Position numbers and translations under genes: made by a program. Below are positions 1-13,355 of a DNA stretch of 18,792 bases, piece by piece. Under the pieces are notes generated by a model. The model ran no database searches and had not been told where the DNA came from. It was given only the letters and a program-made list of their open reading frames with translations. Within the stretch, counting starts at the first letter, position 1; the number at the start of each line of letters is the position of its first letter. This DNA is from Candidatus Epulonipiscium sp. GTDB lineage: Bacteria; Bacillota_A; Clostridia; Lachnospirales; Cellulosilyticaceae. The stretch covers positions 1 through 18,792 of the forward strand of contig DUUM01000166.1 of NCBI GenBank assembly GCA_012841565.1, in the 5' to 3' direction.

Positions 1-32
1 AGGATAAATCGTCGTATCAAAGCTCATTCATA

Positions 33-54
33 AGTAGTAAATTAGTAGTAAATT
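33..54. repeat. 11-bp tandem duplication
   Basis: AGTAGTAAATT occurs twice back to back (33-43, 44-54) in the AT-rich stretch downstream of the first minus-strand genes. No function is apparent. Nothing else is recognisable in 1-114. Confidence 0.6.
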
Positions 55-114
55 GAGTGGTTTTGACCTTGATAAAGTGTGATAAGTCCAGTTTTTATGC
101 GGATAACTAGATTT

Positions 115-207
115 TTATGCTATTTTTATAATAAAAAGACCAAGAAATAAAATACATACAGAAATAAGTAAAAAGAAAACACGAATAAATGATACGCTTT
201 TTTTCAT
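115..207 (-). CDS. 30-residue single-helix membrane peptide
   Basis: This is a short open frame just downstream of the SdpR-type regulator. An excellent ribosome binding site (GGAGGAT, plus-strand 211-217) lies a few bases upstream of the ATG, and the frame closes with TAA. The product begins MKKSVSFIRVFFLL. It has two lysines at the N-terminus and then about 20 hydrophobic residues, so it is probably one membrane helix. SdpR-type regulators are normally followed by SdpI, a much larger multi-helix immunity protein. This peptide occupies that slot but is far too short. It could be the start of a decayed sdpI-like gene or a genuine small membrane protein; the strong ribosome binding site favours translation. 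The function is unknown. Confidence 0.5.
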   Translation of the reverse strand: MKKSVSFIRVFFLLISVCILFLGLFIIKIA

Positions 208-219
208 AATATCCTCCTC

Positions 220-480
220 CTATTTTTTATAAAACAAATCTAAGAAATCGCCAAGGACTTCTTGTAGAACAGAAGTATTAATAGAATAAATTACAAATTG
301 TCCTTTTTTTTCAGAACTTACTAACTCTGCTTCCCTTAGCACATCTAAATGCTTAGAAATAGATGGTTTCGACATATCAAAGTGCTCAGATATCTCTCCA
401 GCGTTCATATCCGCAGAGTTTAATAACTTTAAGATAGATCTGCGAGTTTCATCGCTTAAAGCTTTAAACACTTTGCTCAT
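220..480 (-). CDS. sdpR: SdpR-family ArsR-type autorepressor
   Basis: An 86-residue winged-helix DNA-binding protein of the ArsR superfamily. Residues 1-30 (FKALSDETRRSILKLL) and 38-60 (SKPSISKHLDVLREAELV) form the helix-turn-helix, followed by the KGQFVIYSIN wing. The motif order and 'TSVLQEVLGDFLDLF' tail match the SdpR autorepressor group rather than the metal-sensing ArsR proteins, and no metal-binding Cys pair is seen. The ATG has GGGG-rich sequence upstream (AAAGGGGTGC). A perfect 44-bp palindrome sits between the -10 box and the start codon, consistent with autorepression. In Bacillus, SdpR is antagonised by the membrane protein SdpI; here only a 30-residue membrane peptide follows. 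The family call is firm; the partner and signal are inferred. Confidence 0.85.
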   Translation of the reverse strand: MSKVFKALSDETRRSILKLLNSADMNAGEISEHFDMSKPSISKHLDVLREAELVSSEKKGQFVIYSINTSVLQEVLGDFLDLFYKK

Positions 481-498
481 AAAAGCACCCCTTTCTTA

Positions 499-542
499 CA
501 GCATATAGTTATTTAACTAATTAGTTAAATAACTATATGCTG
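499..542. promoter_or_regulatory. 44-bp perfect palindrome, putative SdpR operator
   Basis: The half-site CAGCATATAGTTATTTAACTAA (499-520) is followed immediately by its exact reverse complement (521-542). It abuts the -10 box of the sdpR promoter and covers the expected transcription start, so a bound repressor would block initiation. The core resembles the AT-rich dyads bound by ArsR-type dimers. Its length would suit two dimers. Confidence 0.75.
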
Positions 543-571
543 ATTGTAATACAAATTAGTAATTAATGCAA
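543..571 (-). promoter_or_regulatory. SigA-type promoter of sdpR
   Basis: On the minus strand, TTGCAT (566-571) and TACAAT (543-548) are separated by exactly 17 bases. The palindromic operator begins directly downstream of the -10. Confidence 0.7.
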
Positions 572-610
572 GGCAAATACAAGGACCGTTTATTAGTAGA
601 TAATATGTAT

Positions 611-648
611 AAAAAAGCAGGGTGATTGGCTATTAGCTAATCACCCTG
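611..648 (-). terminator. Intrinsic terminator of TA module 1
   Basis: A 14-bp stem (618-631 with 635-648; one G-T pair) with a 3-base loop. On the minus strand it is followed by a T6 tract (611-616). It lies 20 bases past the toxin stop codon. Confidence 0.85.
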
Positions 649-668
649 TAAATAAGAGGATTACCCCA

Positions 669-917
669 TTATTTACTATATACTTCACCGCGTGGTAAAA
701 TCTCAATAACTAAGATAATGAACTTTTCATCATCTTTACTAAAGACAATTCTATAACTACCCACTCTAAGTCGGTAATTATCTGTATTTCCTTGTAACCT
801 TTTCACATCTCCCAAGGGAAGTTGATTTATGGCCTTAAGTATTCTAATTTGAGTGTTTCTATCTAGCCTCTTAAAATATTTTAGGCACTTCTTCTCATAA
901 CTGATATTATATTTCAT
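669..917 (-). CDS. RelE/ParE-superfamily toxin, copy 1
   Basis: An 82-residue basic protein of the RelE/ParE toxin superfamily. RelE members are ribosome-dependent mRNA endonucleases; ParE members poison gyrase. The sequence shows the N-terminal helices with 'KYFKRLDRNTQIRILKAI' (14-30), the family turn 'LPLGDVKRLQG' (33-43), the beta-strand core 'YRLRVGSYRIVF' (48-59), and a terminal strand with 'LPRGEVY' (74-80). Conserved Arg/Tyr residues at 49, 51, 55, 56 and 76 are present. RelE-like mRNA cleavage is the likelier activity, but the sequence alone does not settle it. The ATG lies inside the end of the antitoxin gene (11-base overlap), so translation is probably coupled. A near-identical copy lies at 9428-9679. 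Confidence 0.85.
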   Translation of the reverse strand: MKYNISYEKKCLKYFKRLDRNTQIRILKAINQLPLGDVKRLQGNTDNYRLRVGSYRIVFSKDDEKFIILVIEILPRGEVYSK

Positions 918-1161
918 CCTGACTAATCTCCAGTTCTTTCAAGAGACTATCCTGGTTTATAAATTCACCCTGTAATTTTAGTTCTTCCAAACGCTTCGTT
1001 TCTTCTTCTGACATATACTCATGCTCTAATTTGTTTATTTCACTCCATATATTTTCACTTTCTTTAAACTTTAAAAACTCTGTCATATGGATAATTGTTG
1101 TTATGTTCTCAGGCTTCAGTTCGTCTTTTAGTATTTGTCTTATTTTATTTTCCAGAGTCAT
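907..1161 (-). CDS. Cognate antitoxin of RelE-like toxin, copy 1
   Basis: An 84-residue acidic protein encoded directly upstream of the RelE-like toxin and overlapping it by 11 bases, the standard antitoxin-first order. I start it at the ATG at 1161 (MTLENKIRQ) because AGGAGGG (plus 1168-1174) lies six bases upstream; an ATG six codons earlier would place that site inside the gene. The N-terminal 25 residues are probably helical. The middle is rich in Glu/Lys ('YMSEEETKRLEELK'), and the tail (GEFINQDSLLKELEISQDEI) is probably the segment that wraps the toxin. No ribbon-helix-helix or Phd fold is obvious, so I leave the antitoxin family unassigned. Paralogue: 9669-9923, differing at about 10 of 84 positions. 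Confidence 0.8.
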   Translation of the reverse strand: MTLENKIRQILKDELKPENITTIIHMTEFLKFKESENIWSEINKLEHEYMSEEETKRLEELKLQGEFINQDSLLKELEISQDEI

Positions 1162-1180
1162 ACATATCCCTCCTAACATT

Positions 1181-1207
1181 GTAGTGTGTTCTACTTATAT
1201 TGTATCA
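1181..1207 (-). promoter_or_regulatory. Extended -10 promoter and dyad of TA module 1
   Basis: On the minus strand TGATACAAT (1199-1207) is an extended -10; no good -35 is seen. Between it and the antitoxin start is the dyad GTAGTGTGTTCTAC (1181-1194, 4-bp arms GTAG/CTAC), a plausible autoregulation site. Copy 2 keeps both elements with one base changed in the spacer of the dyad. Confidence 0.5.
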
Positions 1208-1289
1208 TGAACAATAATATTATTATACATCTCTAATATTATTTCTGCTAATTTACTTCCGGTGCTATGGATATCTACTCTCTCGTAAG

Positions 1290-1390
1290 CTTGTTAAATA
1301 TGGACAAAAACAACCCCCCGCTCCAACTTCTTGTCAGAATCAGGGGGTTATAACTGTGGGGGCGAGGCGCAACGAAACTATCCACGATAT
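1290..1390 (-). repeat. Interspersed hairpin repeat, copy A
   Basis: A member of the roughly 100-bp repeat family (others at 4044, 6061, 6842, 9345, 10052). Order on the plus strand: CTTGTTAAATAT, an A-rich run, AACCCCCC, the conserved loop CTCCAACTTCTTGTCAGAAT, GGGGGTTATAAC, then a GGGGCGAGGCGCAACGAAACTATCCACGAT tail given here only in outline. The CCCCC/GGGGG stem (1313-1349) followed by T5 on the minus strand looks like a terminator with a long loop. This copy is contiguous with TA module 1, as copy F is with TA module 2. Confidence 0.8.
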
Positions 1391-1427
1391 CTAAACAACT
1401 TTGACAACCATTATAAAAACTTCGTAC

Positions 1428-1456
1428 TTGTCATTTTACATTAAATTTCCTATAAT
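1428..1456 (+). promoter_or_regulatory. SigA-type promoter of the symporter gene
   Basis: TTGTCA (1428-1433) and TATAAT (1451-1456) with a 17-base spacer, 60 bases before the ATG. The gap 1180-1515 otherwise holds the TA promoter and repeat copy A. Confidence 0.8.
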
Positions 1457-1515
1457 CTAATAAGAGGTTACTTAAAAACAAATAGTATGATAAAAATAAG
1501 TTAGGAGTTATTGAA

Positions 1516-2853
1516 ATGCATATAGAAAAAAACCACAAAAAACAAGGATTTGGAAGTCGTTGGGGATTTATATTAGCCTCTGTAGGTTCTGCTGTTGGAA
1601 TGGCTAATGTATGGGGATTTCCAAATAAATTAGGCAGTTACGGCGGAGGTGCCTTCCTACTGATTTATTTGTTTTTCATCTTTATTTTTAGTTATGTTGG
1701 CTTGCCTGCAGAATTTGCTATTGGACGCCGTTCCCGAACAGGGACTTTAGGTTCTTATGAAAATGCGTGGGAAACCCGAGGTAGTAGAACTAAGAAAATA
1801 GGTAGTATACTGGGTTGGTTGCCACTGGCAGGGTCCATGTGTATTGCTATTGGCTATGCTGTTATTGTATCTTATATTCTGAAGGCTCTGGTTGATTCCT
1901 TAACAGGTACATTAATGACTGTCAACGCTACAACATGGTTTGAATCATTTTCCCTTATACCTTATTCGGTTGTTCCATACCATATTATTATCGTCGTTAT
2001 TACTTTACTGACATTATTGTTAGGGGCAAAAAGTATTGAAAAAACAAATAAAATTATGATGCCCCTATTTTTTATTATATTTATTATTTTAGCCATACGC
2101 ATAGCCATGCTACCAGATGTTATGTCAGGTTACTTATTTATGTTTCTCCCTCGCTGGGATGCACTAAAAGATCCAATGGTATGGATCTGGGCAATGGGTC
2201 AGGCCTTCTTTTCATTATCTATTACAGGTAGCGGGATGATTGTTTACGGGGCTTATTTAAGCGAAGATGAAGATGTTGTATCCGCCTCTCGTAAAACGGC
2301 TTTTTTTGATACCATTTCAGCCATTATTGCTGCTTTAGTTATTATTCCAGCATGTTTTTCCTATCAACTTGATATTGGAGCAGGACCTGGTTTACTTTTT
2401 GTTACACTACCTACCATTTTACAAGATATTCCTATGGGCCATATTTTTGCAATTATTTTATATGTTGCTATGATTTTTGCAGGTATTAGTTCCCTGCAAA
2501 ATATGTTTGAAGCAGTATGTGAATCTTTGTTACATAAGTTTCCTAAGTTAAGTCGTAGAGTAGTCCTGATAATTTTATGCCTGGTTTGTTTGGCTTTTGG
2601 TATTAATATGGAGGCCATATTCCAATGGGGTCCATGGATGGATCTAATCTCTATTTATATTATTCCAATCGGTGCAACATTAGGTGCTGTTTCTTGGTTC
2701 TGGGTCATGAAAAAAGAAGTATTACTTTTTGAAATCAATAAAGGGACTAGAAAGAAGCATGGGAATCTATGGTATATATTTGGCCGCTATATCTATGTCC
2801 CACTTGCTCTAATTCTTTGTCTGGTTGCATTGCTTAAAAGGGTAGCTTTTTAA
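1516..2853 (+). CDS. Sodium:neurotransmitter symporter family transporter
   Basis: A 445-residue membrane protein of the NSS/SNF family (LeuT fold), which couples uptake of amino acids or related solutes to Na+. The start has TAGGAG eight bases upstream. The diagnostic first helix 'ASVGSAVGMANVWGFPNKLG' (residues 21-40) and the following 'GGGAFLLIYL' are present. About 11 to 12 hydrophobic helices follow, ending near residue 440, close to the usual bacterial size (about 440-510). Odd point: the normally conserved arginine of the WRFP-type motif is glycine here (VWGFP). In LeuT that Arg is part of the extracellular gate. The gene is monocistronic, with its own promoter and a terminator at 2904-2936, and is on the opposite strand to its neighbours. 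The substrate cannot be read from sequence. Confidence 0.9.
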   Translation: MHIEKNHKKQGFGSRWGFILASVGSAVGMANVWGFPNKLGSYGGGAFLLIYLFFIFIFSYVGLPAEFAIGRRSRTGTLGSYENAWETRGSRTKKIGSILGWLPLAGSMCIAIGYAVIVSYILKALVDSLTGTLMTVNATTWFESFSLIPYSVVPYHIIIVVITLLTLLLGAKSIEKTNKIMMPLFFIIFIILAIRIAMLPDVMSGYLFMFLPRWDALKDPMVWIWAMGQAFFSLSITGSGMIVYGAYLSEDEDVVSASRKTAFFDTISAIIAALVIIPACFSYQLDIGAGPGLLFVTLPTILQDIPMGHIFAIILYVAMIFAGISSLQNMFEAVCESLLHKFPKLSRRVVLIILCLVCLAFGINMEAIFQWGPWMDLISIYIIPIGATLGAVSWFWVMKKEVLLFEINKGTRKKHGNLWYIFGRYIYVPLALILCLVALLKRVAF

Positions 2854-2903
2854 TTGCTCATTTTTGATGTACCTGAGCGCCTAGCATCCTTCTTTTATAT
2901 GTA

Positions 2904-2936
2904 AAAAACAGAAGACCTATTAAGTCTTCTGTTTTT
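2904..2936 (+). terminator. Intrinsic terminator after the symporter gene
   Basis: A 13-bp perfect stem (2904-2916 with 2924-2936), 7-base loop. Its right arm ends in a T5 tract. The A-rich left arm would let it work on the minus strand too, toward the decayed ABC operon. Confidence 0.85.
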
Positions 2937-2987
2937 GCTTAAATTTATTTTCTTATAATAAGTTCTTTAGATATATATAACAGAAAT

Positions 2988-3041
2988 TTATTCTACTTGA
3001 TTAAGTAGTACTTTAAAGTCCTTATAAAAAATTCCTTTCAT
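2988..3041 (-). pseudogene. N-terminal stub of an ABC-2-type permease
   Basis: A strong ribosome binding site (AAGGGGGAG, about 4 bases upstream) precedes ATG and 17 codons, MKGIFYKDFKVLLNQVE, then TAA. The start resembles ABC-2 permease N-termini (MKGLLxKDF...). Its position right after a GntR/YtrA-type regulator remnant supports this. The body of the permease is gone. The identification is inference from a short motif plus context. Confidence 0.4.
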
Positions 3042-3083
3042 TTTGCTCCCCCTTAATATAAAATGGTAGTGTAAAGTATTACC

Positions 3084-3340
3084 CTACCTTTTTGAAGTTG
3101 CGTAAAACAACTTAACAAGTTCGATTATCTTATTCATCTCAATTCCATTTTCTCTGGCAATTTATATCGCTTCTTGTATATAACTTTCTACTCTTCTGAG
3201 ATGTTCTTCTTGTATAAAATCAATATTATGATTCGATACATAAGTTCCTTTTCCTGAAACAGTTTCAATAAACCCATCCCTTATATTCCTGCTGTACACA
3301 CGAATACAAGCACGGTATAGTACAGTGTTTTTATTTTGTG
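3084..3340 (-). pseudogene. GntR-family (YtrA-type) regulator remnant
   Basis: The minus-strand frame ending at TAG 3084-3086 reads '...RDGFIETVSGKGTYVSN' followed by 'HNIDFIQEEHLRRVESYIQEAI', an in-frame TAA (3162-3164), then 'IARENGIEMNKIIELVKLF'. The block 'DGFIETVSGKGTYV' is the wing of the GntR winged helix, and the following helical segment fits the short YtrA-type tail. The TAA replaces what is commonly a Lys codon. The N-terminal DNA-binding helices are degenerate upstream of about 3340, and no start is visible. A permease stub follows, so this was probably a ytr-like regulator plus ABC-transporter operon that has decayed. The rest of 2937-3430 shows nothing else. Confidence 0.65.
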
Positions 3341-3435
3341 AATACCTTTGATAATTATTACTATACTTTTAGCCTTGTCTTAACTCAGGTTTGCAATTTG
3401 TAGTCTCCCTTGTCAATTCTTTTATTTAAGCATAC

Positions 3436-3468
3436 AAAAAACTCCCTAGAACAGTTGTCAAAGGGAGT
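3436..3468 (-). terminator. Intrinsic terminator of the Phd/ParE module
   Basis: A 7-bp stem ACTCCCT (3441-3447) with AGGGAGT (3462-3468), 14-base loop. On the minus strand it is followed by a T-run (3436-3441). It lies 31 bases past the toxin remnant. Confidence 0.65.
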
Positions 3469-3498
3469 ATAAAACATATTTTAATATATTATTATCAA

Positions 3499-3675
3499 TC
3501 ATAGTCTAACTCTGAACCTTCTCCAAACAACTGCTCCTAGTGCCGGATATTGTTCTAACCTTCTAATATCTGATGTAATCTTTCCCAAAATTCTTTTTGC
3601 CACATTCTCCATTACATATTCCTTGATTTCTGTCAAATCTTGTAATGCCATGGGTGAGTACTCAATTTTAGCCAT
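3499..3675 (-). pseudogene. Truncated ParE/RelE-type toxin
   Basis: A 58-residue frame starting MAKIEYSPMALQDLTEIKEY, the classic N-terminus of ParE-type toxins (normally about 95-105 residues). The helix 'AKRILGKITSDIRRLEQYPALG' (26-47) is recognisable. After it the usual strand core ('YRYLFI...YVFYR...RIIRI') is missing: the frame runs into 'AVVWRRFRVRL' and stops. A few residues also seem lost after 'VMEN'. The start has AGGAG seven bases upstream, and the ATG overlaps the antitoxin stop codon, so the gene arrangement is intact while the toxin almost certainly is not. Confidence 0.6.
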
Positions 3676-3677
3676 AC

Positions 3678-3923
3678 CTATACTCCTAGCATAGCTTCAA
3701 CATCATCTGCGGAAAGCCACCCTTTCTCTCTCGCTGATTTCTCACCTTCCTCTAACTTTGTTAGTAACCTAATTGTCGCCTTTAATTTATCTAGTTCATT
3801 AAGTTTCATAATGGCATATTCTCCTCGCCCATTTCTAGTTAAATAAACTGGACTATTTTCCTTTACTTCTTTAAGTACTTCTGTATAGTTCCTTAAATCA
3901 GAAATTGGTTTAATGTTTAGCAT
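3678..3923 (-). CDS. Phd/YefM-family antitoxin
   Basis: An 81-residue antitoxin. I start at the ATG at 3923 (MLNIKPISDLRNY) because AGGAG sits nine bases upstream; the ATG three codons earlier touches that site. Residues 1-50 match the Phd/YefM DNA-binding fold: 'IKPISDLRNY' , 'ENSPVYLTRNGRGEYAIMKLNELDKL'. The C-terminal half (ATIRLLTKLEEGEKSAREKGWLSADDVEAMLG) is the toxin-binding helix region. It normally represses its own operon and neutralises a downstream ParE/RelE toxin. That toxin is truncated here, so the antitoxin is effectively an orphan. Its promoter carries a perfect 18-bp palindrome beside the -35 box. Confidence 0.85.
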   Translation of the reverse strand: MLNIKPISDLRNYTEVLKEVKENSPVYLTRNGRGEYAIMKLNELDKLKATIRLLTKLEEGEKSAREKGWLSADDVEAMLGV

Positions 3924-3946
3924 AACGATCATCTCCTTATATAAAT

Positions 3947-3996
3947 ATTATATCCTATATTTTAATAAATATCAATGTTAATTAACATGTTAATTA
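3947..3996 (-). promoter_or_regulatory. Promoter and operator of the Phd antitoxin gene
   Basis: On the minus strand TTGATA (3970-3975) and TATAAT (3947-3952) are 17 bases apart. Just upstream of the -35 is the perfect 18-bp palindrome TAATTAACATGTTAATTA (3979-3996), a likely Phd-type autoregulatory operator. Confidence 0.7.
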
Positions 3997-4043
3997 GCAG
4001 CATATCTTTATAATGTCATTAATCTAACCTATTTCATATTAGG

Positions 4044-4148
4044 CTTGTTAAATATAAGTACAAAAAAACAACCCCCGAACTCCAACACAATTGTCAGAAT
4101 CCGAGGGTTATAACCATGGAGGTGAGCCACGGTGACTCTATCCACCAT
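4044..4148 (-). repeat. Interspersed hairpin repeat, copy B
   Basis: Same order as copy A: CTTGTTAAATATA, an A7 run, the AACCCCCG/CGAGGGTT hairpin (4070-4109), the conserved loop CTCCAACACAATTGTCAGAAT region, then TATAACCATGGAGGTGAG and a GACTCTATCCACCAT tail. On the minus strand the hairpin is followed by T7. It lies 60 bases past the 196-residue gene and could terminate it. Confidence 0.85.
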
Positions 4149-4210
4149 ATCACCAAAATTCAGATTTTTCGCTACTCATGCGGTCCCTACTTACCTTCTA
4201 AAAGAAATTA

Positions 4211-4801
4211 TTAAGCATGCTTAGTGATTTTATATATGTAGGTTTGTCCACCATTTTCTCCAATTTCCATTGGAAGTTGTGGGCAGAAATAAACTCTATC
4301 AGGTGCGTTACTTGTTAACCTCTTCATTTTAGTATGGAGTTCACAATTAACGTCAATACCATTAATCTCTTTAGTCAACGAACTTCGCACTATATCTCTA
4401 CTCCTCTCAGGGGAACAATCTATAGACATTCTGTCCCCTATTTCCCTATATCCTTGTGGTATCTGCTTCATAATTTTCAAAATCTCATTATCAATACAGT
4501 ATAAATGATAAATTATTTCTTTTTTTCGATTTTCAAAACCATCATTTAAATGTCTCATCGATTCGACTATATCCTCATCAAAACATAAGGAATACAAAAT
4601 TATTTTGATTTTTTCTATAAACTCACTTATATTTTTTTTATTATCACAAAAAATTAATAGTACTTGTTTAAAACCTTGCATACCAATTATATTCCTTATA
4701 CCCTCCACCCCATCAAGTCTATATGCTACCATCTTTAAATCACGCCTAAACAGGGCATTATCTGCTAATGCATTAAAAACTTTCCTCTTCAGTTTTATCA
4801 T
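4211..4801 (-). CDS. Hypothetical protein, 196 residues
   Basis: I do not recognise this protein. It is soluble, mostly alpha-helical in appearance, with no signal peptide or membrane segment. Segments that may help a search are 'MVAYRLDGVEGIRNIIGMQGF' in part (25-44), 'QVLLIFCDNKKNISEFIEKI' (46-65) and a C-terminal 'RVYFCPQLPMEIGENGGQTYIY'. No Shine-Dalgarno sequence precedes the ATG at 4801, and an in-frame TAG lies immediately upstream. Another frame (MVNVKRNRYQNQIGQ..., from about 4892) runs across that start and meets an IS3 fragment upstream. The annotated start may therefore be a scar left when the 5' end was displaced. Repeat copy B follows and may terminate it. Confidence 0.45.
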   Translation of the reverse strand: MIKLKRKVFNALADNALFRRDLKMVAYRLDGVEGIRNIIGMQGFKQVLLIFCDNKKNISEFIEKIKIILYSLCFDEDIVESMRHLNDGFENRKKEIIYHLYCIDNEILKIMKQIPQGYREIGDRMSIDCSPERSRDIVRSSLTKEINGIDVNCELHTKMKRLTSNAPDRVYFCPQLPMEIGENGGQTYIYKITKHA

Positions 4802-4866
4802 CTATATGAATTATCCATACTTCATCTGCATATTCACTTAATCTTTGCCCTATCTGATTCTGATAT

Positions 4867-4960
4867 CTATTCCTTTTTACGTTTACCATTTTTATGAAGT
4901 TGAACTAACTGATGCTTAAATTCGGGTGTGAATGTACGTCTTGGTTTTTGACTGGGCCAT
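4867..4960 (-). pseudogene. IS3-family OrfA N-terminal fragment
   Basis: One minus-strand frame reads 'QKPRRTFTPEFKHQLVQLH' then 'KNGKRKKE' and stop. That is the N-terminal helix of IS3-family OrfA transposase subunits (…RRTFTPEFKxQxVxLYxNGKR…). The likely ATG (4960, after AAGGAGTAGAGACC) is one base out of frame with this stretch, so there is a frameshift within the first few codons. Everything after residue 28 or so, and OrfB, is absent. No terminal inverted repeats were found. This is an old insertion scar. Confidence 0.6.
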
Positions 4961-5022
4961 GGTCTCTACTCCTTAAGGTTTATAAGTTTACATTTCACAC
5001 ACCTCATTTTCCCTCCTCAAAA

Positions 5023-5068
5023 TAGCAAAAGACAGACTACTAAATTAGCTAGTCTGTCTTTTGTTTTT
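5023..5068. terminator. Bidirectional hairpin terminator
   Basis: A 13-bp perfect stem (5027-5039 with 5050-5062), with T-rich sequence on both sides (T5 at 5064-5068 on plus; TTTTGCTATTTT on minus). It lies between the AraC-type gene and the IS3 fragment. The rest of 4802-5166 holds only the IS fragment and a short minus-strand open stretch (5087-5165, ending RKLRIQHEVQKQYELKRLKK) that I cannot assign. Confidence 0.65.
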
Positions 5069-5166
5069 ATTTCGCATAATTAATTATCATTCTTTTTTCA
5101 ATCTCTTTAGTTCATATTGTTTTTGAACTTCATGTTGTATCCGTAATTTCCTTGATAAGATGAAAT

Positions 5167-6006
5167 TTATGCCTTCTCCACTGGTATCCAAATCTCGTTG
5201 TAGCTATCCTCCGCATTTTCGCATGGCGGTGTATACATTTCAATGTTGTAGTTACCTGCAAGCTTATATGCTTTGCAAGATGGCAGCCACTCACTCCAAA
5301 TCTTTGTATTCACGTCCTGCAATGCTTTTGGCAATGCACCACGACAAGGAAATACAGCCCATGTACCTGCAGGAATTACTTTTGTTTCGTAGCCTTCCTG
5401 AATCTCATCCCATGGAATATAGTTATCGGCAATGAAATAATCAAAATTCTTTCCATCAGAGTCCATACATATTCCATACATGCCACAAACAACTTCTCTC
5501 TCACCACTTTCCATATGTTCCTTCCAGAACTTAGGAATTTCAGCATAAGAAGTTTCCATATTGAATTTACGTGACTTTCCCATTACTGTAAACTGTGCCT
5601 TTTCAACAATTTTGTACTCTAACATAGTACCACCCTCCAATGTAAGTTTAATTTTCAGCGGCGCAAAAGAATTCAGTTTACTACCTCTTCCTCTTGCTGC
5701 TGAAGGATTTACCCCATGAAACTTTGTGAATGCTCTAGCAAAACTATCCGGCGAATCGTAACCGTATTTCAATGCAACATCAATCACCTTAATATCAGTA
5801 GAACAAAGTTCCTGCGCAGCAAGCGTCAGACGGCGATTCCTTATATACTCACCAACCGTAAATCCGCATAGTACATTGAATATTTTTTGAAAGTAGAAAC
5901 TTGACACATATGCTTTATTGGCTATTTTATTTATATCAATATGGTCCATTAAATTGTCTTCAATGTATGCAATTGCATTAGCAATACCTTCATTCCAACC
6001 AATCAT
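5167..6006 (-). CDS. AraC-family regulator with GyrI-like ligand domain
   Basis: A 279-residue two-domain regulator. Residues about 8-105 are the AraC/XylS DNA-binding domain with two helix-turn-helix units ('INKIANKAYVSSFYFQKIFN' and 'VIDVALKYGYDSPDSFARAF', followed by the usual 'FTKFHGVNPSAAR'). Residues about 128-279 are a GyrI-like/effector-binding domain ('MLEYKIVEKAQFTVMGKSRK', 'IPAGTWAVFPCRGALPKALQ', 'EMYTPPCENAEDSYNEIWIPV'), the small-molecule pocket found in Rob, BmrR-like and SbmC/GyrI proteins. This domain order is common in Firmicutes. AGGAGGG lies six bases before the ATG. No target gene adjoins it; repeat copy C lies just upstream. The ligand is unknown. Confidence 0.9.
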   Translation of the reverse strand: MIGWNEGIANAIAYIEDNLMDHIDINKIANKAYVSSFYFQKIFNVLCGFTVGEYIRNRRLTLAAQELCSTDIKVIDVALKYGYDSPDSFARAFTKFHGVNPSAARGRGSKLNSFAPLKIKLTLEGGTMLEYKIVEKAQFTVMGKSRKFNMETSYAEIPKFWKEHMESGEREVVCGMYGICMDSDGKNFDYFIADNYIPWDEIQEGYETKVIPAGTWAVFPCRGALPKALQDVNTKIWSEWLPSCKAYKLAGNYNIEMYTPPCENAEDSYNEIWIPVEKA

Positions 6007-6060
6007 AAGATGCCCTCCTTCCTTATTTCGCTGTAATTATATTATACGTATAAGTGTACC

Positions 6061-6130
6061 TATTTTCCCGACTCTCCTTGTTCTGTTGTATCGGGTTATA
6101 ACCATGGAGGTGAGATGTACATCACTATTC
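6061..6130 (-). repeat. Interspersed hairpin repeat, copy C (degenerate)
   Basis: It retains GGGTTATAACCATGGAGGTGAG (6093-6114, shown in outline) and a loop resembling the family loop (CTCCTTGTTCTGTTGTA), with a short CCCGA/TCGGG stem (6067-6071 with 6091-6095). There is no T-run on the minus strand, so it is unlikely to terminate. It sits between the AraC-type gene and the recombinase fragment. Confidence 0.6.
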
Positions 6131-6150
6131 TATAGCCTTTTTATACGGAC

Positions 6151-6354
6151 ATGCGTAGGGGAGAGATATTAGGCTTACCATGGGATAATGTAGATTTTAA
6201 AAATCAATCCATTTATGTAACACAAACAAGGCAATTTGTAGGGAATGATATTATTGTAACTGGTGTAAAAACAAAGAAGAGCAAGCGGATGATTACTATA
6301 TTTGATGAATTATCTAAGGCGTTACAAAAAGGCTATAATCCCTATAGATTATAG
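6151..6354 (+). pseudogene. Tyrosine recombinase (phage-type integrase) fragment
   Basis: A 67-codon piece of a tyrosine recombinase catalytic domain. 'MRRGEILGLPWDNVDFKNQSI' in part (residues 1-20) contains the first catalytic Arg in its standard context (G/D-M-R-x-G-E). Then follow the beta-strand region 'SIYVTQTRQF' and 'VKTKKSKRMITIFDELSKAL'. Everything before that Arg and the downstream HxxR and Tyr residues are absent. An in-frame TAG lies just upstream, and no ribosome binding site fits the ATG. The 3' end runs into the tRNA-Lys terminator hairpin. Integrases of integrative elements often lie beside the tRNA 3' end they use, so this is probably the remains of one that targeted tRNA-Lys. 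Confidence 0.75.
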
Positions 6355-6361
6355 CCTTTTT
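6326..6361 (-). terminator. Terminator of tRNA-Lys
   Basis: A perfect 14-bp stem (6326-6339 with 6348-6361), 8-base loop. On the minus strand it begins three bases after the tRNA and ends in T5. It also overlaps the end of the recombinase fragment. Confidence 0.8.
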
Positions 6362-6363
6362 AG

Positions 6364-6436
6364 TGCGCCATCAGGGGTTCGAACCCTGGACCCCCTGATT
6401 AAGAGTCAGGTGCTCTGCCAACTGAGCTAATAGCAC
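6364..6436 (-). tRNA. tRNA-Lys (anticodon CUU)
   Basis: A 73-base complete cloverleaf. Acceptor stem GTGCTAT pairs with ATGGCGC. The D-arm has AGCTCAGTTGGCAGAGCA. The anticodon stem CCTGA/TCAGG encloses CTCTTAA, giving anticodon CTT. The T-arm is CAGGGTTCGAACCCTG. The discriminator base is A, and CCA is not encoded. It has its own promoter and terminator. Confidence 0.95.
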
Positions 6437-6457
6437 ATTTATTAAACTTACTTAAAA

Positions 6458-6486
6458 AGTATACCACTACTGTCATAGACTGTCCA
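6458..6486 (-). promoter_or_regulatory. SigA-type promoter of tRNA-Lys
   Basis: On the minus strand TGGACA (6481-6486) and TATACT (6458-6463) are 17 bases apart, about 20 bases before the mature tRNA 5' end. Confidence 0.75.
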
Positions 6487-6504
6487 TATATATATTTAAA
6501 ATAT

Positions 6505-6752
6505 TTAAATTTTGTAAATTGCAATATTAAATGTCCGATATTTTTAAATAAATTTCAGTATGATAATAGAATACCAGGCAAACTTTTTATCTATGAACAG
6601 GATGTTATTTCAATGGGTGCACAAGGAATATTCATGTAGAAAGCTCATTACCTATAGAATATATTCCAAATGATTTAAGATCATTAGGAATGTCATTGTT
6701 AATTTTATTTGCCATGGACTTAAGACCTTATATGAATTATTTTTTATCGTAG
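6505..6752 (+). pseudogene. Unassigned frameshifted gene remnant
   Basis: Two overlapping plus-strand open stretches in different frames join into one protein-like text. The first (to TAG 6637-6639) includes 'NRIPGKLFIYEQDVISMGAQ'. The second (6597 to TAG 6750-6752) includes 'VESSLPIEYIPNDLRSLG' followed by 'MSLLILFAMDLRPYMNYFLS'. A single frameshift near 6635 would connect them. There is no start codon or ribosome binding site. I cannot name the family. The remainder of 6437-7035 holds the tRNA promoter and repeat copy D. Confidence 0.3.
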
Positions 6753-6841
6753 GTGCTACCCCTCCAATAAGCTGCAGAATTATCGCAATAACCTTAACAT
6801 TCTAACCCTAATTTGTCAATCCTAATATACTCTCTATCATA

Positions 6842-6945
6842 GTTATTAAATATACCTGAATAAAATAACACTCGGATTCCAACTTAATTGTCAGAATCTG
6901 AGGGTTATAACCATGGAGGTGAGCCACGATGACTCTATCCACCAT
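6842..6945 (-). repeat. Interspersed hairpin repeat, copy D
   Basis: The tail (TATAACCATGGAGGTGAGCC and on to CTATCCACCAT) is nearly identical to copy B. The hairpin (about 6867-6907) has changed: inner pairs GATTC (6875-6879) with GAATC (6894-6898) and CTC with GAG take over from the CCCTCG stem. The A-run is interrupted, so termination would be weaker. It lies about 90 bases past the gene ending at 7036. Confidence 0.8.
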
Positions 6946-7035
6946 TTACACAGCTAACTGCCTATTCTGTTCTTTAATCCATATACCTATAAAAGACATA
7001 CCAAAACTTGAAACAAACCGCAACCCCTTAAAACA

Positions 7036-7413
7036 TTATGAAATACTTAATGAGAAATCAAAATAATATTTTCTGATTATGTCCTCTACTACCATATCCT
7101 CTTCTTCTATAAAGTATCTACTATAAACTTCTGATAGTTCATCAAATCTAATATTAGACTGAATTATGTGTGAGTCTATGACTGCAACTATTTCGTTTGA
7201 AACAATTTCTTCATAGCTATTTTTGTATTCGTCCGAAGGTATGTTGTTTTTGAAATATTTTAATATATTGTCATAGCTGGTATCATCAAAAAAGTTATTT
7301 GATAATGAACATAGGACAATGCTTTCTTCAAAAATCTTAGTATGATCATTAGCTAATCTTTTATTTATTATTCCTTCTTTCAATAAAACGACTGAATATT
7401 TATCTAATTTCAT
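7036..7413 (-). CDS. Hypothetical acidic protein, 125 residues
   Basis: Not recognised. I start it at the ATG at 7413 (MKLDKYSVVLLKEGI) because AGGAGG lies seven bases upstream; an ATG 11 codons earlier would place that site inside the gene. The product is strongly acidic in its C-terminal half ('RFDELSEVYSRYFIEEEDMV'), soluble and probably helical. It is last in a run of small minus-strand genes (7802, 8213, 8492 starts). Size, charge and position beside another small orphan protein are reminiscent of immunity proteins, but nothing in the sequence proves this. Confidence 0.6.
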   Translation of the reverse strand: MKLDKYSVVLLKEGIINKRLANDHTKIFEESIVLCSLSNNFFDDTSYDNILKYFKNNIPSDEYKNSYEEIVSNEIVAVIDSHIIQSNIRFDELSEVYSRYFIEEEDMVVEDIIRKYYFDFSLSIS

Positions 7414-7466
7414 TTTAAAACCTCCTACAAAGTCTACAGACACCAAATTAAAAATTTTGTTTCAAT

Positions 7467-7802
7467 CTAATTTCCTTTTTCTATAAGAGGATGCCATTCT
7501 TTGTATTGCTTAAGTGGATTTAATAAGATAGCTTGCTTAATATAATGCATAGCCAGTTCCCATGAACCGGGCGGAGTTAGGGTTATAAACAGATAGTATG
7601 CCATTAAAAAACTCAAATGAGCAGCTTTTTCCTGGTCTCCTTTGTCTAAATAATGATGGAAAGATGTTAGGAGAACAAAATATAGGTTTGTTTTGTCAAA
7701 ATTATCTGCACCTATATAAAAATCATCTAAATCTGAAGGCTGTATCCGCATCACACCACTTTCTTTAATGACAGGTTCTTTCCAGTTAATTTTTAGCACC
7801 AT
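7467..7802 (-). CDS. Hypothetical protein, 111 residues
   Basis: Not recognised. The start has AGGTAGGA about seven bases before the ATG. The body looks like paired helices: 'NLYFVLLTSFHHYLDKGDQE' and 'KAAHLSFLMAYYLFITL', then 'GSWELAMHYIKQAILLNPLK', which resembles a single TPR-type hairpin (A...Y...A..L.P). It may thus be a small TPR-like adaptor or an immunity-type protein. Upstream and abutting it is a 31-codon fragment of another gene (7805-7900). It lies 53 bases before the 7413 start and is probably co-transcribed with it. Confidence 0.6.
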   Translation of the reverse strand: MVLKINWKEPVIKESGVMRIQPSDLDDFYIGADNFDKTNLYFVLLTSFHHYLDKGDQEKAAHLSFLMAYYLFITLTPPGSWELAMHYIKQAILLNPLKQYKEWHPLIEKGN

Positions 7803-7804
7803 AT

Positions 7805-7900
7805 TTATCCTACCTCTTTTAACTTTGTTTTATCAGGCACACGATCTTCTAAGCACACACTAGCAATTAGTAATCCTAGTATAGCCTCAATTACATTCCC
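7805..7900 (-). pseudogene. C-terminal fragment of an unidentified gene
   Basis: A minus-strand open stretch with no start codon signal reads 'GNVIEAILGLLIASVCLEDR' then 'VPDKTKLKEVG' and TAA. It ends two bases before the ATG of the next gene, the spacing of a genuine operon partner. It was probably the 3' end of the gene that once preceded the 111-residue protein. Family unknown. Confidence 0.35.
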
Positions 7901-7913
7901 TTAAAGTCCTAGA

Positions 7914-8213
7914 TTACTTGAAACTAAATAAGTGGGTCGGCTCCTCAACTTCAGGAGACTCCTCATATATTGTAAAGGGATCAATATCTAAACATGTGCT
8001 TTCGCTATAATTCCCTTCTAAATCCCATGCTAATGTCCCATTTAATACAGTACAACTATCTATAAACAAAGTAATATCTTGTAGTGGCTGAAACACACCT
8101 TGCTGAATAATTTTTTTAGCATCAAACAATTTTATAGATCCATCATCAAAATAAACATATACCGTATAATCTTCCGTTGGTATAACCTGTATAACTTCAG
8201 GCATATATTCCAT
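7914..8213 (-). CDS. DUF2442 domain protein
   Basis: A 99-residue protein of the DUF2442 family. The pattern 'PEVIQVIPTEDYTVYVYFDDGSIKLFDAKKII' (two strands and the Y/F-DDG turn), then 'LFIDSCTVLNGTLAWDLEGN' and 'CLDIDPFTIYEES', is typical; the central 'GTLAWD' block is the family hallmark. AGGAGGG precedes two consecutive ATGs; I favour the second (8213), six bases from it. DUF2442 genes are commonly paired with DUF4160 genes, as here, and the pair has a TA-like architecture, but the biochemical role is not established. Confidence 0.8.
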   Translation of the reverse strand: MEYMPEVIQVIPTEDYTVYVYFDDGSIKLFDAKKIIQQGVFQPLQDITLFIDSCTVLNGTLAWDLEGNYSESTCLDIDPFTIYEESPEVEEPTHLFSFK

Positions 8214-8231
8214 CATTATCCCTCCTACAAT

Positions 8232-8492
8232 TTAACTTAATGGTGCAATCTTATACACAGGTTGCCCACTATTTGCGAGCTCCCAGTTTTGCATTAGTTC
8301 GTCTTTATGAATTTCAGCCCAAGCTAACACTAATTTTAACTGCCTCTTTGGCAAGTTGCCTTTTAAAACTCGGCAGTTTATTATATCTATCAATGCTTGA
8401 TTTCCATTATACTGTGCATGAAAATGGGGTGGTACATGATCATTAAAATTAATTGTAATTCTTATTCCAAAAAACAGACTTATCTCCGGCAT
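8232..8492 (-). CDS. DUF4160 domain protein
   Basis: An 86-residue protein of the DUF4160 family. The hallmark 'HVPPHFHAQYNGNQALIDI' (residues about 20-38) is present, with clustered histidines that may be functional. It is followed by 'LPKRQLKLVLAWAEIHKDEL' and 'NW'. I start at the ATG at 8492 (MPEISLFFGI) because GGGAGG lies seven bases upstream; the ATG 12 codons earlier lacks a site. It is first in an apparent operon with the DUF2442 gene (18-base gap). It has a long AT-rich leader with an extended -10 at 8590-8598. Confidence 0.85.
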   Translation of the reverse strand: MPEISLFFGIRITINFNDHVPPHFHAQYNGNQALIDIINCRVLKGNLPKRQLKLVLAWAEIHKDELMQNWELANSGQPVYKIAPLS

Positions 8493-8589
8493 TGCTATTC
8501 CTCCCTGTGAAAGTATATATCTTTTCATATTTTTAAATTTATATCTTATTAGTCATAAATAACTCTATTTATTAAACATCTTTATATTT

Positions 8590-8598
8590 ATTATATCA
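8590..8598 (-). promoter_or_regulatory. Extended -10 promoter of the DUF4160 operon
   Basis: On the minus strand TGATATAAT is an extended -10 with no convincing -35. It would give a leader of about 90 bases. Confidence 0.4.
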
Positions 8599-8687
8599 TT
8601 AAATATATCATATTTGTAGGAAGTAATATTGTCTGTTATTCACATTCTTTCCGATATTTTGTGCTTCTAACATACACGGCCTATACT

Positions 8688-8897
8688 CTATTGAAGATAA
8701 AACAACTCTTCAAACTTTTTATCAAGTGCGGTACAAAGAATAAGAGCTAGTTTGGCCGTGGGGTTAAACTTGCCTATTTCAATAGAGCTAATTGTATTTC
8801 TTGATACACCTACTATTTCAGCAAGTTCACTTTGTGAAAATTCCTTTTCTGCGCGCGCTACTTTTAATCGGTTTTTTAATACTAATTCATCTTTCAT
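8688..8897 (-). CDS. Xre-family HTH regulator
   Basis: A 69-residue protein that is essentially one Cro/cI-type helix-turn-helix. 'LKNRLKVARAEKEFSQSELA' leads into 'EIVGVSRNTISSIEIGKFNP', with the Q-x-x-L-A and S-R-x-T-I-S-x-I-E signatures intact, then 'LALILCTALDKKFEELF'. A TTG start four codons earlier is possible. I prefer ATG 8897 because it follows the upstream stop codon by one base (TAATATG), which points to translational coupling. It is co-transcribed with a DUF6442-like membrane protein, a common pairing in Clostridia. An inverted repeat in their promoter is a likely target. Confidence 0.85.
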   Translation of the reverse strand: MKDELVLKNRLKVARAEKEFSQSELAEIVGVSRNTISSIEIGKFNPTAKLALILCTALDKKFEELFYLQ

Positions 8898-8898
8898 A

Positions 8899-9225
8899 TT
8901 AATATCCAATTATCTTTACTAAATCTCTTAGTAAATAAGAACGTAAAAAAGCAATAGACATAAGTATACCTAAAACAAATCCCAAAAGCTCCCTTTTTCT
9001 TTTGTTTACACGATATTTCCCATAATATTCTGCTCCCAGAAAAGCAAACCACATACTCATAGGAGCATTAATACTTCCCCCTATGGAGATATCAATCACA
9101 CAATATATAGAAATCATTACAGTTAATCCATAAAAACCATACTGTCTCCCCAAGTTCTCTTTATAAATAAGTCCCTCATCTTCTTTTTGCTCACGGCTTT
9201 TTCGCAAAATTTCTTCTTTGTCCAT
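8899..9225 (-). CDS. DUF6442-like small membrane protein
   Basis: A 108-residue protein with a charged N-terminus (MDKEEILRKSREQKEDEG) and three predicted membrane helices: about 30-48 (YGFYGLTVMISIYCVIDI), 56-68 and 80-98 (ELLGFVLGILMSIAFLRSYL). The N-terminal 'KEEILxKSR' pattern and helix layout match the small membrane proteins annotated DUF6442 that precede Xre regulators. AAGGGTG lies seven bases before the ATG. By analogy with membrane-protein/Xre pairs it may sense or control the regulator, which is inference. Confidence 0.65.
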   Translation of the reverse strand: MDKEEILRKSREQKEDEGLIYKENLGRQYGFYGLTVMISIYCVIDISIGGSINAPMSMWFAFLGAEYYGKYRVNKRKRELLGFVLGILMSIAFLRSYLLRDLVKIIGY

Positions 9226-9249
9226 ATATACACACCCTTTACAAGTATT

Positions 9250-9278
9250 ATTGTATTTATGACAGGTTTACTTGTCAC
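9250..9278 (-). promoter_or_regulatory. Promoter and operator of the membrane protein/Xre operon
   Basis: On the minus strand GTGACA (9273-9278) and TACAAT (9250-9255) are 17 bases apart. The spacer holds the imperfect inverted repeat TGACAAGTAAACCTGTCA (9260-9277; 6 of 7 arm positions pair), placed for repression by the downstream Xre protein. Confidence 0.65.
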
Positions 9279-9344
9279 TCTTAATTTACCCTTAATCACC
9301 TTTTTTGTCAATCCTTTTTTATCATGCAGTAATTCCATATCAAA

Positions 9345-9418
9345 CCTATTATAAATAAATGTACAAAAAAATAACCCCCAAACTCCAACTTCTTGTCAGA
9401 ATTCAAGGGCTATAACTC
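9345..9418 (-). repeat. Interspersed hairpin repeat, copy E (truncated)
   Basis: It has the A6 run, ATAACCCCC, the conserved loop CTCCAACTTCTTGTCAGAAT, and AAGGGCTATAAC (hairpin 9373-9411), then breaks off before the GGAGGTGAG tail. It lies 10 bases past the toxin stop of TA module 2 and supplies a T6-ending hairpin on the minus strand. Confidence 0.75.
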
Positions 9419-9427
9419 TATTGTTTT

Positions 9428-9679
9428 CTATAATCTATTATATACTTCACCGCGTGGTAAAACCTCAATAATTAATATAATGAACCTTTCATCATCTTTA
9501 CTAAAGACGATTCTATAATTACCCACTCTAAGTCGGTAATTTTCTGTATTTCCTTGTAATTTTTTCACATCCCCTAAGGGAAGTTGATTTATGGCCTTAA
9601 GTATTCTAATTTGAGTGTTTCTATCTAGCTTCTTAAAATATTTTAGACACTTCTTCTCATAACTGATATTATATTTCAT
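9428..9679 (-). CDS. RelE/ParE-superfamily toxin, copy 2
   Basis: An 83-residue paralogue of the toxin at 669-917. It differs at about nine positions, nearly all conservative (K/R, D/E, S/N, V/I), and has one extra terminal Leu. The core 'YRLRVGNYRIVF' and 'LPRGEVY' are kept, so it looks functional rather than decaying. It overlaps its antitoxin by 11 bases as in copy 1. The 3' flank differs from copy 1: here repeat copy E, not a dedicated terminator, follows. Confidence 0.85.
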   Translation of the reverse strand: MKYNISYEKKCLKYFKKLDRNTQIRILKAINQLPLGDVKKLQGNTENYRLRVGNYRIVFSKDDERFIILIIEVLPRGEVYNRL

Positions 9680-9923
9680 CCTGACTAATCCCCAGTTCTT
9701 TCAAGAGATTATTCTGGTTTATAAATTCACCATTTAATTTTAGTTCTTCCAAACGCTTCGTTTCTTCTTCCGATATATACTCATGCTCTGATTTATTTAT
9801 TTCATTCCATATATATTCATTTTCCTTAAACTTTAAAAACTCTGTCATATGGATAATTGTTCTTATGTTCTCAGGCTTCAGTTCATCTTTTAGTATTTGT
9901 CTTATTTTATTTTCCAGAGTCAT
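9669..9923 (-). CDS. Cognate antitoxin of RelE-like toxin, copy 2
   Basis: An 84-residue paralogue of the antitoxin at 907-1161, started at the equivalent ATG (9923, AGGAGGG upstream). It differs at about 10 positions, several non-conservative and in the C-terminal half (L/S, M/I, Q/N, D/N, E/G), the part expected to contact the toxin. Cross-neutralisation between the two modules may therefore be reduced, but the first 20 residues are identical. No structural family is assigned. Confidence 0.8.
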   Translation of the reverse strand: MTLENKIRQILKDELKPENIRTIIHMTEFLKFKENEYIWNEINKSEHEYISEEETKRLEELKLNGEFINQNNLLKELGISQDEI

Positions 9924-9941
9924 ACATATCCCTCCTAACAT

Positions 9942-9969
9942 TGTAGTATGTTCTACTTATATTGTATCA
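9942..9969 (-). promoter_or_regulatory. Extended -10 promoter and dyad of TA module 2
   Basis: On the minus strand TGATACAAT (9961-9969) with the dyad GTAGTATGTTCTAC (9943-9956), matching copy 1 except for one spacer base. Confidence 0.5.
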
Positions 9970-10051
9970 TGAACAATAATATTAGTATACATCTCTAATA
10001 TTATTTCTGCTGACTTGCTTCCAGTGCTATACATATCTACTCTCTAGTAAA

Positions 10052-10155
10052 CTTGCTAAATATAGCTACAAAAAAATAACCCTCGAACTCCAACTTAATT
10101 GTCAAAATCCGAGGGTTATAACCATGGAGGTGAGGGGCATCGAACCCCGTATCGC
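10052..10155 (-). repeat. Interspersed hairpin repeat, copy F
   Basis: The most symmetrical copy: ATAACCCTCG (10076-10085) pairs perfectly with CGAGGGTTAT (10110-10119). On the minus strand it is followed by T7. The tail CATGGAGGTGAGGGGCATCG then AACCCC contains a GGGG/CCCC hairpin around TTCGATG, which resembles a tRNA T-arm on the minus strand. It lies 54 bases past the last ABC permease gene and probably terminates that operon. Confidence 0.85.
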
Positions 10156-10208
10156 ATCTTTTTTACTGCATATTGATTCACTTTTAAATACAGCCTCATA
10201 AATATAAA

Positions 10209-10988
10209 TTACCCTTTAACCCCCCCCGCAGTCATCCCTTCTATAAAATATCTTTGGAATGATAAAAACAATACCAATATAGGTATGATTGCTAGCACAG
10301 ATCCTGTAATTAATATATCGTAGTTATTGCCATAAGGTGTTATTAAGGTTGCCAGACCTATTGGCAAAGTAAGTTTTTCTGGGCTTCTTAGCACGATCAG
10401 TGGCCATAAGAATCCATTCCAACTATTCATGCCTACAAAAATACCCATTGCAGCAAAGGATGGCGCCATTAGTGGAAAAAAAATTCGCCCAAAGATGTCG
10501 TACTCTGTGCATCCATCAATTCTTCCTGCTTCCATTAACTCTTTAGGTATCCCACCTAAATATTGTCTAAAGAAAAATATAGGAGCTGGGGATGCTATAA
10601 ATGGAAGAATAATTCCCCATACGGAGTCTATAATTTTCATGTTAATGGCTTGTTTATATAACGGCAACATAATAATCTCCATAGGTACCATCATAATAAT
10701 AAGAACACATGTAAATAAAATATTTTTAAACCACATAAAGTAACTATGTTTGCCTGTAAACATATATTTGTAATTATCCCACGACATAATCGCTGGATCT
10801 ATTTTAATATTCAAACCAAATCTCAAAAGTTCTTTGGATGGTTTAAAAGATGCTAAAACAATACAATATATAGGGAACAATACCAGGAGGGCTAAAACTG
10901 TAAAAAATACCACTAGAAAAATAGTTTCTGGCGTTATTTTTTGTTTTACTTTAATCTTTGTTTTAATGTTAGCTTGCTGCTTATCCAT
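10209..10988 (-). CDS. Carbohydrate ABC permease (MalG/AraQ type), possibly deleted
   Basis: A 259-residue permease of the MalG/AraQ family, the second membrane subunit of a CUT1 sugar importer. The ATPase-contact loop 'MEAGRIDGCTEYDIFGRIFFPL' (152-173) and the C-terminal 'QRYFIEGMTAGGVKG' are standard. TM1 is at about 22-45. However, 'WFKNILFTCV' (86-95) passes directly into 'LIIMMVPMEIIMLPLY' (96-111). In relatives these are separated by about 30 residues that complete TM2 and the 'YAFAK..F.GK' loop, and usual lengths are 270-300. An in-frame deletion is therefore likely, leaving about five helices. The ATG is three bases past the stop of the preceding permease, with GGAGGAG overlapping that gene's end. 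Confidence 0.8.
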   Translation of the reverse strand: MDKQQANIKTKIKVKQKITPETIFLVVFFTVLALLVLFPIYCIVLASFKPSKELLRFGLNIKIDPAIMSWDNYKYMFTGKHSYFMWFKNILFTCVLIIMMVPMEIIMLPLYKQAINMKIIDSVWGIILPFIASPAPIFFFRQYLGGIPKELMEAGRIDGCTEYDIFGRIFFPLMAPSFAAMGIFVGMNSWNGFLWPLIVLRSPEKLTLPIGLATLITPYGNNYDILITGSVLAIIPILVLFLSFQRYFIEGMTAGGVKG

Positions 10989-10991
10989 AGG

Positions 10992-11903: not shown

Positions 11904-11930
11904 TACTATCTACTCCTTTCACTTTCAGAT

Positions 11931-11970: not shown

Positions 11971-11987
11971 ATAAATTTTAATGCAAT

Positions 11988-13325: not shown

Positions 13326-13355
13326 TTCTCTCACTCCCATCTGATTTTTTGCGTT

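Follow-up and report, generated by a model that had tools for sequence, protein, structure and literature searches.

Tycheposons are cargo-bearing elements that target tRNA genes; in them small cargo lies beside partial tRNAs that serve as attachment (att) sites. A review (PMC5704250) describes the att sites of tyrosine recombinases as direct repeats of 8–60 bp and tRNA 3' ends as their targets, and it also describes tandem accretion of integrative and conjugative elements (ICEs) and integrative and mobilizable elements (IMEs), including cis-mobilizable elements (CIMEs) that have lost their integration genes. A survey of bacterial stem-loop repeats covers two Clostridium species, among others (PMC2267715). 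The window analysed here is the whole of an 18,792-nucleotide stretch of DNA from Candidatus Epulonipiscium sp. (assembly GCA_012841565.1, contig DUUM01000166.1, positions 1 to 18,792), in which an earlier note had described a family of six hairpin repeats, called here copies A to F. These repeats are probably att-site relics in a tandem array that lies at, or derives from, a tRNA-Ala gene, and the site would include a minus-strand terminator.

Repeat copies, shared core and hairpin strand

The hairpin is common to five of the six reported copies, namely A (1290), B (4044), D (6842), E (9345) and F (10052), and the pattern GTTATARCCCNNNNATTYTGACAA picks out exactly these five, all on the minus strand, at up to 3 mismatches (0.01 expected in the window from shuffles). 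A covariance model derived from these hairpins returns all five at 73–93 bits in an unfiltered search of the window; these scores are high by construction, since the model was trained on the same hairpins, and the informative part is that no sixth full copy appears. The runners-up are a match on the opposite strand of D (18.8 bits) and a different hairpin at 11925–11989 (18.7 bits), while copy C scores 14 bits and shares only a 22-bp core with B, D and F. Apart from the hairpin at 11925–11989, which lies just past the minus-strand gene 11988–13340 and has no core motif, nothing beyond position 10155 scores above 11.3 bits. The copies are as follows.

1283–1393, minus strand: copy A, with a diverged core (4 of 22 positions mismatched), a terminator hairpin (stem about 1310–1351) and a tail, within a duplicated unit that includes the toxin–antitoxin (TA) genes at 669–1179
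4037–4150, minus strand: copy B, with the acceptor-strand remnant CTCACCTCCA (4117–4126), a perfect 22-bp core (4105–4126), the hairpin (4068–4111) and a U-run
6067–6114, minus strand: copy C, with a perfect 22-bp core (6093–6114), a different and weaker hairpin (about 6067–6095, −8.1 kcal/mol) and a different tail
6838–6950, minus strand: copy D, with a perfect core (6902–6923), the hairpin with two mismatches (6865–6908) and a B-like tail
9361–9431, minus strand: copy E, with the hairpin (9371–9413) and a U-run, lacking a tRNA-like tail and beginning 14 nt past a toxin stop codon
10045–10160, minus strand: copy F, with a perfect core (10113–10134), the hairpin (10076–10119) and a U-run

The copies share a common descent, and all six face the same way, as had been claimed. 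Their parts are not all complete: C has neither the A-run nor the conserved inner stem, E does not have ATGGAGGTGAG, and the core of A carries 4 mismatches. The tail motif CTCACCTCCATGGTTATAACCC, which is the 22-bp core, occurs perfectly four times (B, C, D and F) where chance would give 0.00 in the window, and is identical at 22/22 positions in all six pairs of these copies. On either side of it, ungapped comparison of C with B, D and F gives chance-level agreement, with 10–11/40 matches on the hairpin side and 3–4/20 on the tail side. Copy F in turn resembles B and D on the hairpin side (35/40) yet not on the tail side (5/20). A short shared core between different flanks is the mark of site-specific recombination.

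The hairpin is best read on the minus strand. There, in a hand alignment, 92 of 99 cells pair (25 of them as G·U) versus 68 of 99 on the plus strand, and the stem is a 19-bp helix with many G·U pairs. Its inner half, AUUCUGAC/GUUGGAGU, goes unseen on the plus strand, where each G·U turns into A·C, and it covers most of what had been taken for a near-invariant loop. The true tip is only 5–6 nt long and variable (AAUUAA, AAUUGU, AAGAA), and the view that the loop is at least as well conserved as the stem falls away, since that "loop" is mostly paired. Minus-strand RNA of A, B, D, E and F folds at −17 to −27 kcal/mol and the plus strand of A, B, E and F more weakly (−4 to −15 kcal/mol), with D folding about equally well on both (−17.1 for minus versus −17.7 kcal/mol for plus).

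This strand preference is clear, and covariation is unproven. In the hand alignment 8 of the 19 pairs vary among the standard pair types. A count by program finds two pairs that change on both sides, which is not above control: on its five measures 37–124 of 500 shuffles do at least as well. In the alignment used for that count the 3' arm of copy A is displaced by one base, which lowers the score. Sliding the partner strand by 1–3 columns reduces pairing from 92.6% to 36–58% (at most 57.9%), a control that is biased towards any structure derived from the same sequences. The stem of A has one bulge. In D, where part of the stem was said to be replaced by other pairs, two G·U pairs do become Watson–Crick pairs, but two other pairs become mismatches.

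In B, E and F the hairpin runs into seven T, of which the first is paired, and all three copies are listed by a terminator scan; A has five T and D has TTTTATT, neither being listed, and C has no U-run. By anatomy, then, B, E and F look like intrinsic terminators of the minus strand. The suggestion that the family is more than a plain terminator was right: sequence beside the stem is conserved and the orientation is uniform. The argument from loop conservation fails, though, and a tRNA 3' end as ancestor, together with a 22-bp core of recombination type, accounts better for what is conserved beyond the stem.

Two other ways of reading the element were rejected. A plus-strand RNA or leader with a Shine–Dalgarno sequence fails on the G·U pairs that become A·C on that strand, and the short frames of B and D there agree in their first six codons only, (M/V)TLSTI. 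Minus-strand coding across the hairpin fails because 7 of 8 codon differences between B and D up to the U-run, as judged by eye, alter the amino acid, and because in A and E the frame is shifted or interrupted by a stop.

Link to a tRNA-Ala 3' end

B, D and F have an open minus-strand frame that runs across the element; it was used purely as a probe, against a protein collection, for gene-caller translations of other copies. It matched P0041 (77 aa, from a 3.2-Mb contig), the sole candidate listed of 19, with HLHGYNPRI identical and an E value of 8 that is not significant by itself. P0041 as the query then matched P0042 (81 aa, E 6e-5, 22/27 residues). Past HLHGYNPRI both proteins continue as SDNLV(G/R)VRGLF, a frame-shifted reading of the hairpin. 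Copy B, read on the minus strand in that register, gives SDNCVGVRGLF and agrees at 10/11 positions with SDNLVGVRGLF of P0041; the same register gives 9/11 in F, 8/11 in D, 4/11 in E and 3/11 in A, and outside the copies the window offers nothing better than 6/11. Judged by its translation, P0041 is a further relic that lacks the T-arm.

P0042, which reads ...WGCSSFGRALEWHSRGRGFDSPHLHGYNPRISDNLVRVRGLFEF, ties this hairpin to a tRNA. The residues directly ahead of HLHGYNPRI are WGCSSFGRALEWHSRGRGFDSPHLH, as tRNA-Ala genes translate, and a Paracoccus plasmid tRNA-Ala(GGC) found with P0042 translates as WGHSSVGRALEWHSRGQGFDSPWLH. Among plasmids P0042 matches 122 records, and ARAGORN calls a tRNA-Ala in all three that were examined among the 15 listed (two GGC, one CGC); among phages, a tRNA-Ala is annotated at the match in 16 of the 20 records listed, the best 20 of 95. 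Random back-translation of a stretch of P0042 yields ARAGORN tRNAs in 7 of 4000 sequences, 5 of them tRNA-Ala(GGC), against 0 of 40,000 from ten shuffled peptides. As far as translations can tell, the hairpin is therefore the trailer of a tRNA-Ala(GGC) gene in another contig, and read through these translated relatives the copies of our window descend from a tRNA 3' end.

Part of that end is still recognisable in the window itself.

10125–10148, minus strand: tRNA-derived 3' end in copy F, with the T-arm GGGG-TTCGATG-CCCC (10134–10148) followed by TCACCTCCA, the acceptor 3' strand with the discriminator

This remnant lies in the same reading frame as P0042, and the strict T-arm motif occurs only twice in the window, in copy F and in a tRNA-Lys gene. 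Cut off at the T-arm, the F stretch finds its best match in the tmRNA model (of the tRNA/tmRNA clan), at the 3' end, with 9.6 bits and E 0.02, below the gathering score; copy B gives no comparable tRNA or tmRNA match in the short-stretch scan. The match alone cannot separate tRNA-Ala from tmRNA, and it is P0042 that decides for tRNA-Ala.

Searches for further relatives at the DNA level gave little. The exact DNA pattern had one match in genome contigs, in a Gammaproteobacterium and without a matching 3' arm; because P0041 and P0042 imply one extra base, this pattern is too strict and its near-silence says little. In viral contigs, pattern and protein scans gave 46 loci, all of which were examined and judged unrelated by eye, among them one (L007) with an unrelated hairpin just ahead of a shared 17-mer that we take as chance. 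Searches with blastn found nothing in phages, and nothing in plasmids with B or with a composed query; with F (E up to 5) they gave 31 plasmid records, mostly from Klebsiella, with a best E of 0.03, and the one examined lies between annotated genes, beside transfer genes. With tblastn, the antitoxin had no match in plasmids, and P0041 had none in plasmids and three phage records at E 2–5.

Proposed insertion model, cargo and alternatives

The repeats are direct, with one orientation in 6/6 copies; they include a tRNA 3' end, as seen in CTCACCTCCA, in the T-arm of F and in the tRNA-Ala reading of P0042; and their 22-bp core falls within the 8–60 bp of att sites, with different flanks in C and with like flanks in B and D. 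We therefore suggest that mobile elements inserted one by one into the 3' end of tRNA-Ala(GGC), each bringing or regenerating the last tRNA bases, CTCACCTCCA, and a short downstream block, TGGTTATAACCC. The 22-bp block would be the crossover core, and the trailer hairpin, which would end tRNA transcription on the minus strand, would usually have come along with the tRNA end. Each element may have been obliged to supply the tRNA with a terminator, so that the hairpin travels with the core, which would explain both the hairpin in five copies and another hairpin in C. The intervals between copies would then represent elements in decay, or cassettes of cargo, that site-specific accretion has brought together. 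Recombination at the core, the enzyme responsible and the order of insertion are what we infer from this arrangement.

The intervals measure 0.7–2.8 kb, five in a row, and the genes of the array include the following.

669–1179, minus strand: TA module, a ParE-type toxin and a putative antitoxin (no family match), 94% like 9428–9941
9428–9941, minus strand: second copy of the ParE-type TA module, between E and F
6151–6354, plus strand: tyrosine recombinase fragment of the phage integrase type, 37 bp away from copy C, with a Pfam match of 21.8 bits (E 0.00017) that stays under the cut-off of 27.1

Further cargo includes a Phd/YefM antitoxin, DUF4160 and DUF2442 proteins, a Cass2-type AraC regulator, an SNF-family symporter and a helix-turn-helix/DUF6442 pair. 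Behind the Phd/YefM antitoxin a 58-aa frame (3499–3675) has, by eye, the look of a short ParE/RelE-type toxin. The protein encoded at 4211–4801 has 196 aa and a best match of 62% identity in Anaerovorax odorimutans; 32 of 36 other listed homologs have 280–300 aa, and this gene is thus probably truncated or frameshifted. By eye, TATAGCCTTTTTA stands both beside copy C and at the tRNA-Lys 3' flank (window positions 6130–6362), bracketing the integrase fragment; the pair is possibly a second att pair, or merely an arm of the tRNA-Lys terminator. Towards the right end lies a pair of BlaR1-type M56 peptidase and penicillinase-repressor-type (BlaI) genes (16280–18510). At the left contig end, positions 1–152 are 96–100% identical over 127–152 bases to a stretch of pCF10 that has no annotated gene and lies beside YdcP/FtsK-type genes, and they also match other plasmids, mostly enterococcal. 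We take this end to be, probably, the terminus of a Tn916-family element, and a conjugative element may lie off the left contig edge.

Several observations weigh against att-site relics as the source of the repeats. A full integrase gene was not seen among the 19 window proteins scanned with Pfam, which include only the phage-type fragment. Nor was an intact tRNA-Ala found in the 18.8-kb window, in which ARAGORN calls tRNA-Lys only, and the place beyond the end of F where a tRNA-Ala would be expected holds sugar ABC permease and arabinofuranosidase-type genes; an intact target gene may lie past the contig end. The hairpins of A and F match at 47/55 positions with 6 gap columns, and their flank at 95/103, beside TA copies that are 94% identical; they differ more than the modules next to them, and we count this against an att-site origin. 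In the comparisons of core and flanks, which are ungapped, the core of A has 4 changes (18/22 match) and the tail of A stands between those of the others (matching B at 12/20, D at 13/20 and F at 11/20), while B and D are alike on both flanks (32/40 and 19/20), so the tails of the copies are not fully independent. Copy E has neither ATGGAGGTGAG nor a tRNA part nor a core tail. The core of P0041 and P0042 is known through its codons only, and the queries used brought up no relative in IMG/VR, phages or plasmids.

One alternative is that a tRNA-Ala 3' end with its terminator was copied by ordinary segmental or tandem duplication and then decayed, leaving mere terminators between minus-strand genes. 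It has a fairly small chance of being right. In its favour, A and F sit in the duplicated TA unit (94%), B and D agree on both flanks, and the terminator anatomy suits the position of B, D, E and F downstream of minus-strand genes. Plain duplication, however, would have taken the flanks along, and both C, with exactly 22 bp shared and chance-level flanks on both sides, and F, which differs from B and D on one side, speak against it. Transposition of a short, non-autonomous interspersed repeat, about 120 bp long and with its origin in a tRNA end, similar in kind to short interspersed nuclear elements or miniature inverted-repeat transposable elements, would fit a multicopy, intergenic, tRNA-derived family whose hairpin part is rather uniform in B, D and F. 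We consider it quite improbable, as all six copies share one orientation, copy boundaries differ and C retains 22 bp only; terminal inverted repeats and target duplications were not noticed by eye, with no tool search made for them.

It is very unlikely that the copies are small regulatory RNAs of the minus strand, in which an exposed CACCUCC would bind Shine–Dalgarno sequences and the hairpin would be the 3' terminator. A terminator with a C-rich stretch upstream is what such RNAs would show, and short stretches gave sub-threshold matches of the F hairpin to RybB (E 0.066) and of B to NsiR1 (E 0.68), both of them small RNAs that end in a terminator. But CACCUCC is accounted for as the tRNA acceptor strand, no minus-strand promoter-like site among the best 60 of 89 lies within about 150 nt upstream of any copy, and of the four matches in a whole-window Rfam scan (E up to 1) none is on a copy. 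The gathering score was exceeded by tRNA-Lys alone among those four, and the short-stretch matches of F and B were all below theirs. With their hairpins, their direct orientation and the kind of cargo that is typical of cassettes (TA modules, the Cass2 regulator), the copies also recall the attC sites of an integron cassette array. The boxes of attC follow the consensus RYYYAAC/GTTRRRY; by eye they are absent here, where the minus strand has TTATAAC (TTATAGC in E) and GTTATTT/GTTGTTT, and no integron integrase was seen among the 19 proteins scanned. The sequence contradicts a canonical attC, and we regard this explanation as extremely unlikely. The small size and number of the cassettes do leave room for a system that is integron-like in its logic, to which we give a small chance: tRNA-Ala 3' ends with terminators would be the sites at which a tyrosine recombinase acting in trans captures, duplicates and shuffles integrase-free cassettes (TA modules, DUF pairs), each with its own insulating terminator.

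If the repeats are indeed att-site relics, a puzzling family of RNA-like repeats becomes the trace of DNA that inserted again and again at a single tRNA gene, the 22-bp core becomes a concrete handle for searches, and there is a reason for TA genes and genes of unknown function to gather here. The case also carries a caution, that a conserved hairpin with a conserved tail can be a tRNA remnant and not a riboswitch or small RNA.

Comparison with known systems

Integron attC arrays resemble this locus in their array logic and type of cargo, but the copies here lack the R-box consensus, and no integron integrase occurs among the proteins scanned. The intrinsic terminators of tRNA genes have the same GC-rich stem followed by a U-run right after the tRNA; here, by contrast, the tRNA body is absent and there are several copies. 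From tycheposons the locus differs in that neither a recombinase module nor a full target tRNA is seen in the window. Stem-loop repeat families of bacterial genomes (PMC2267715) likewise consist of repeated stem-loops, whereas our repeats have a recognisable origin in a tRNA end and it is the core, not the whole unit, that is common to the copies.

The closest likeness is to CIMEs and tandem accretion, for which PMC5704250 describes a tandem layout, direct repeats of 8–60 bp that take in the 3' end of a tRNA, and decayed elements whose integration genes are gone. The present array departs from them in its very small intervals (0.7–2.8 kb, five in a row), in having no intact target gene in the window and in the trailer terminator that accompanies most of its att relics. 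With these differences, the array looks like a series of decayed, CIME-like integrative elements, a genome island of a known kind in an unusual form.

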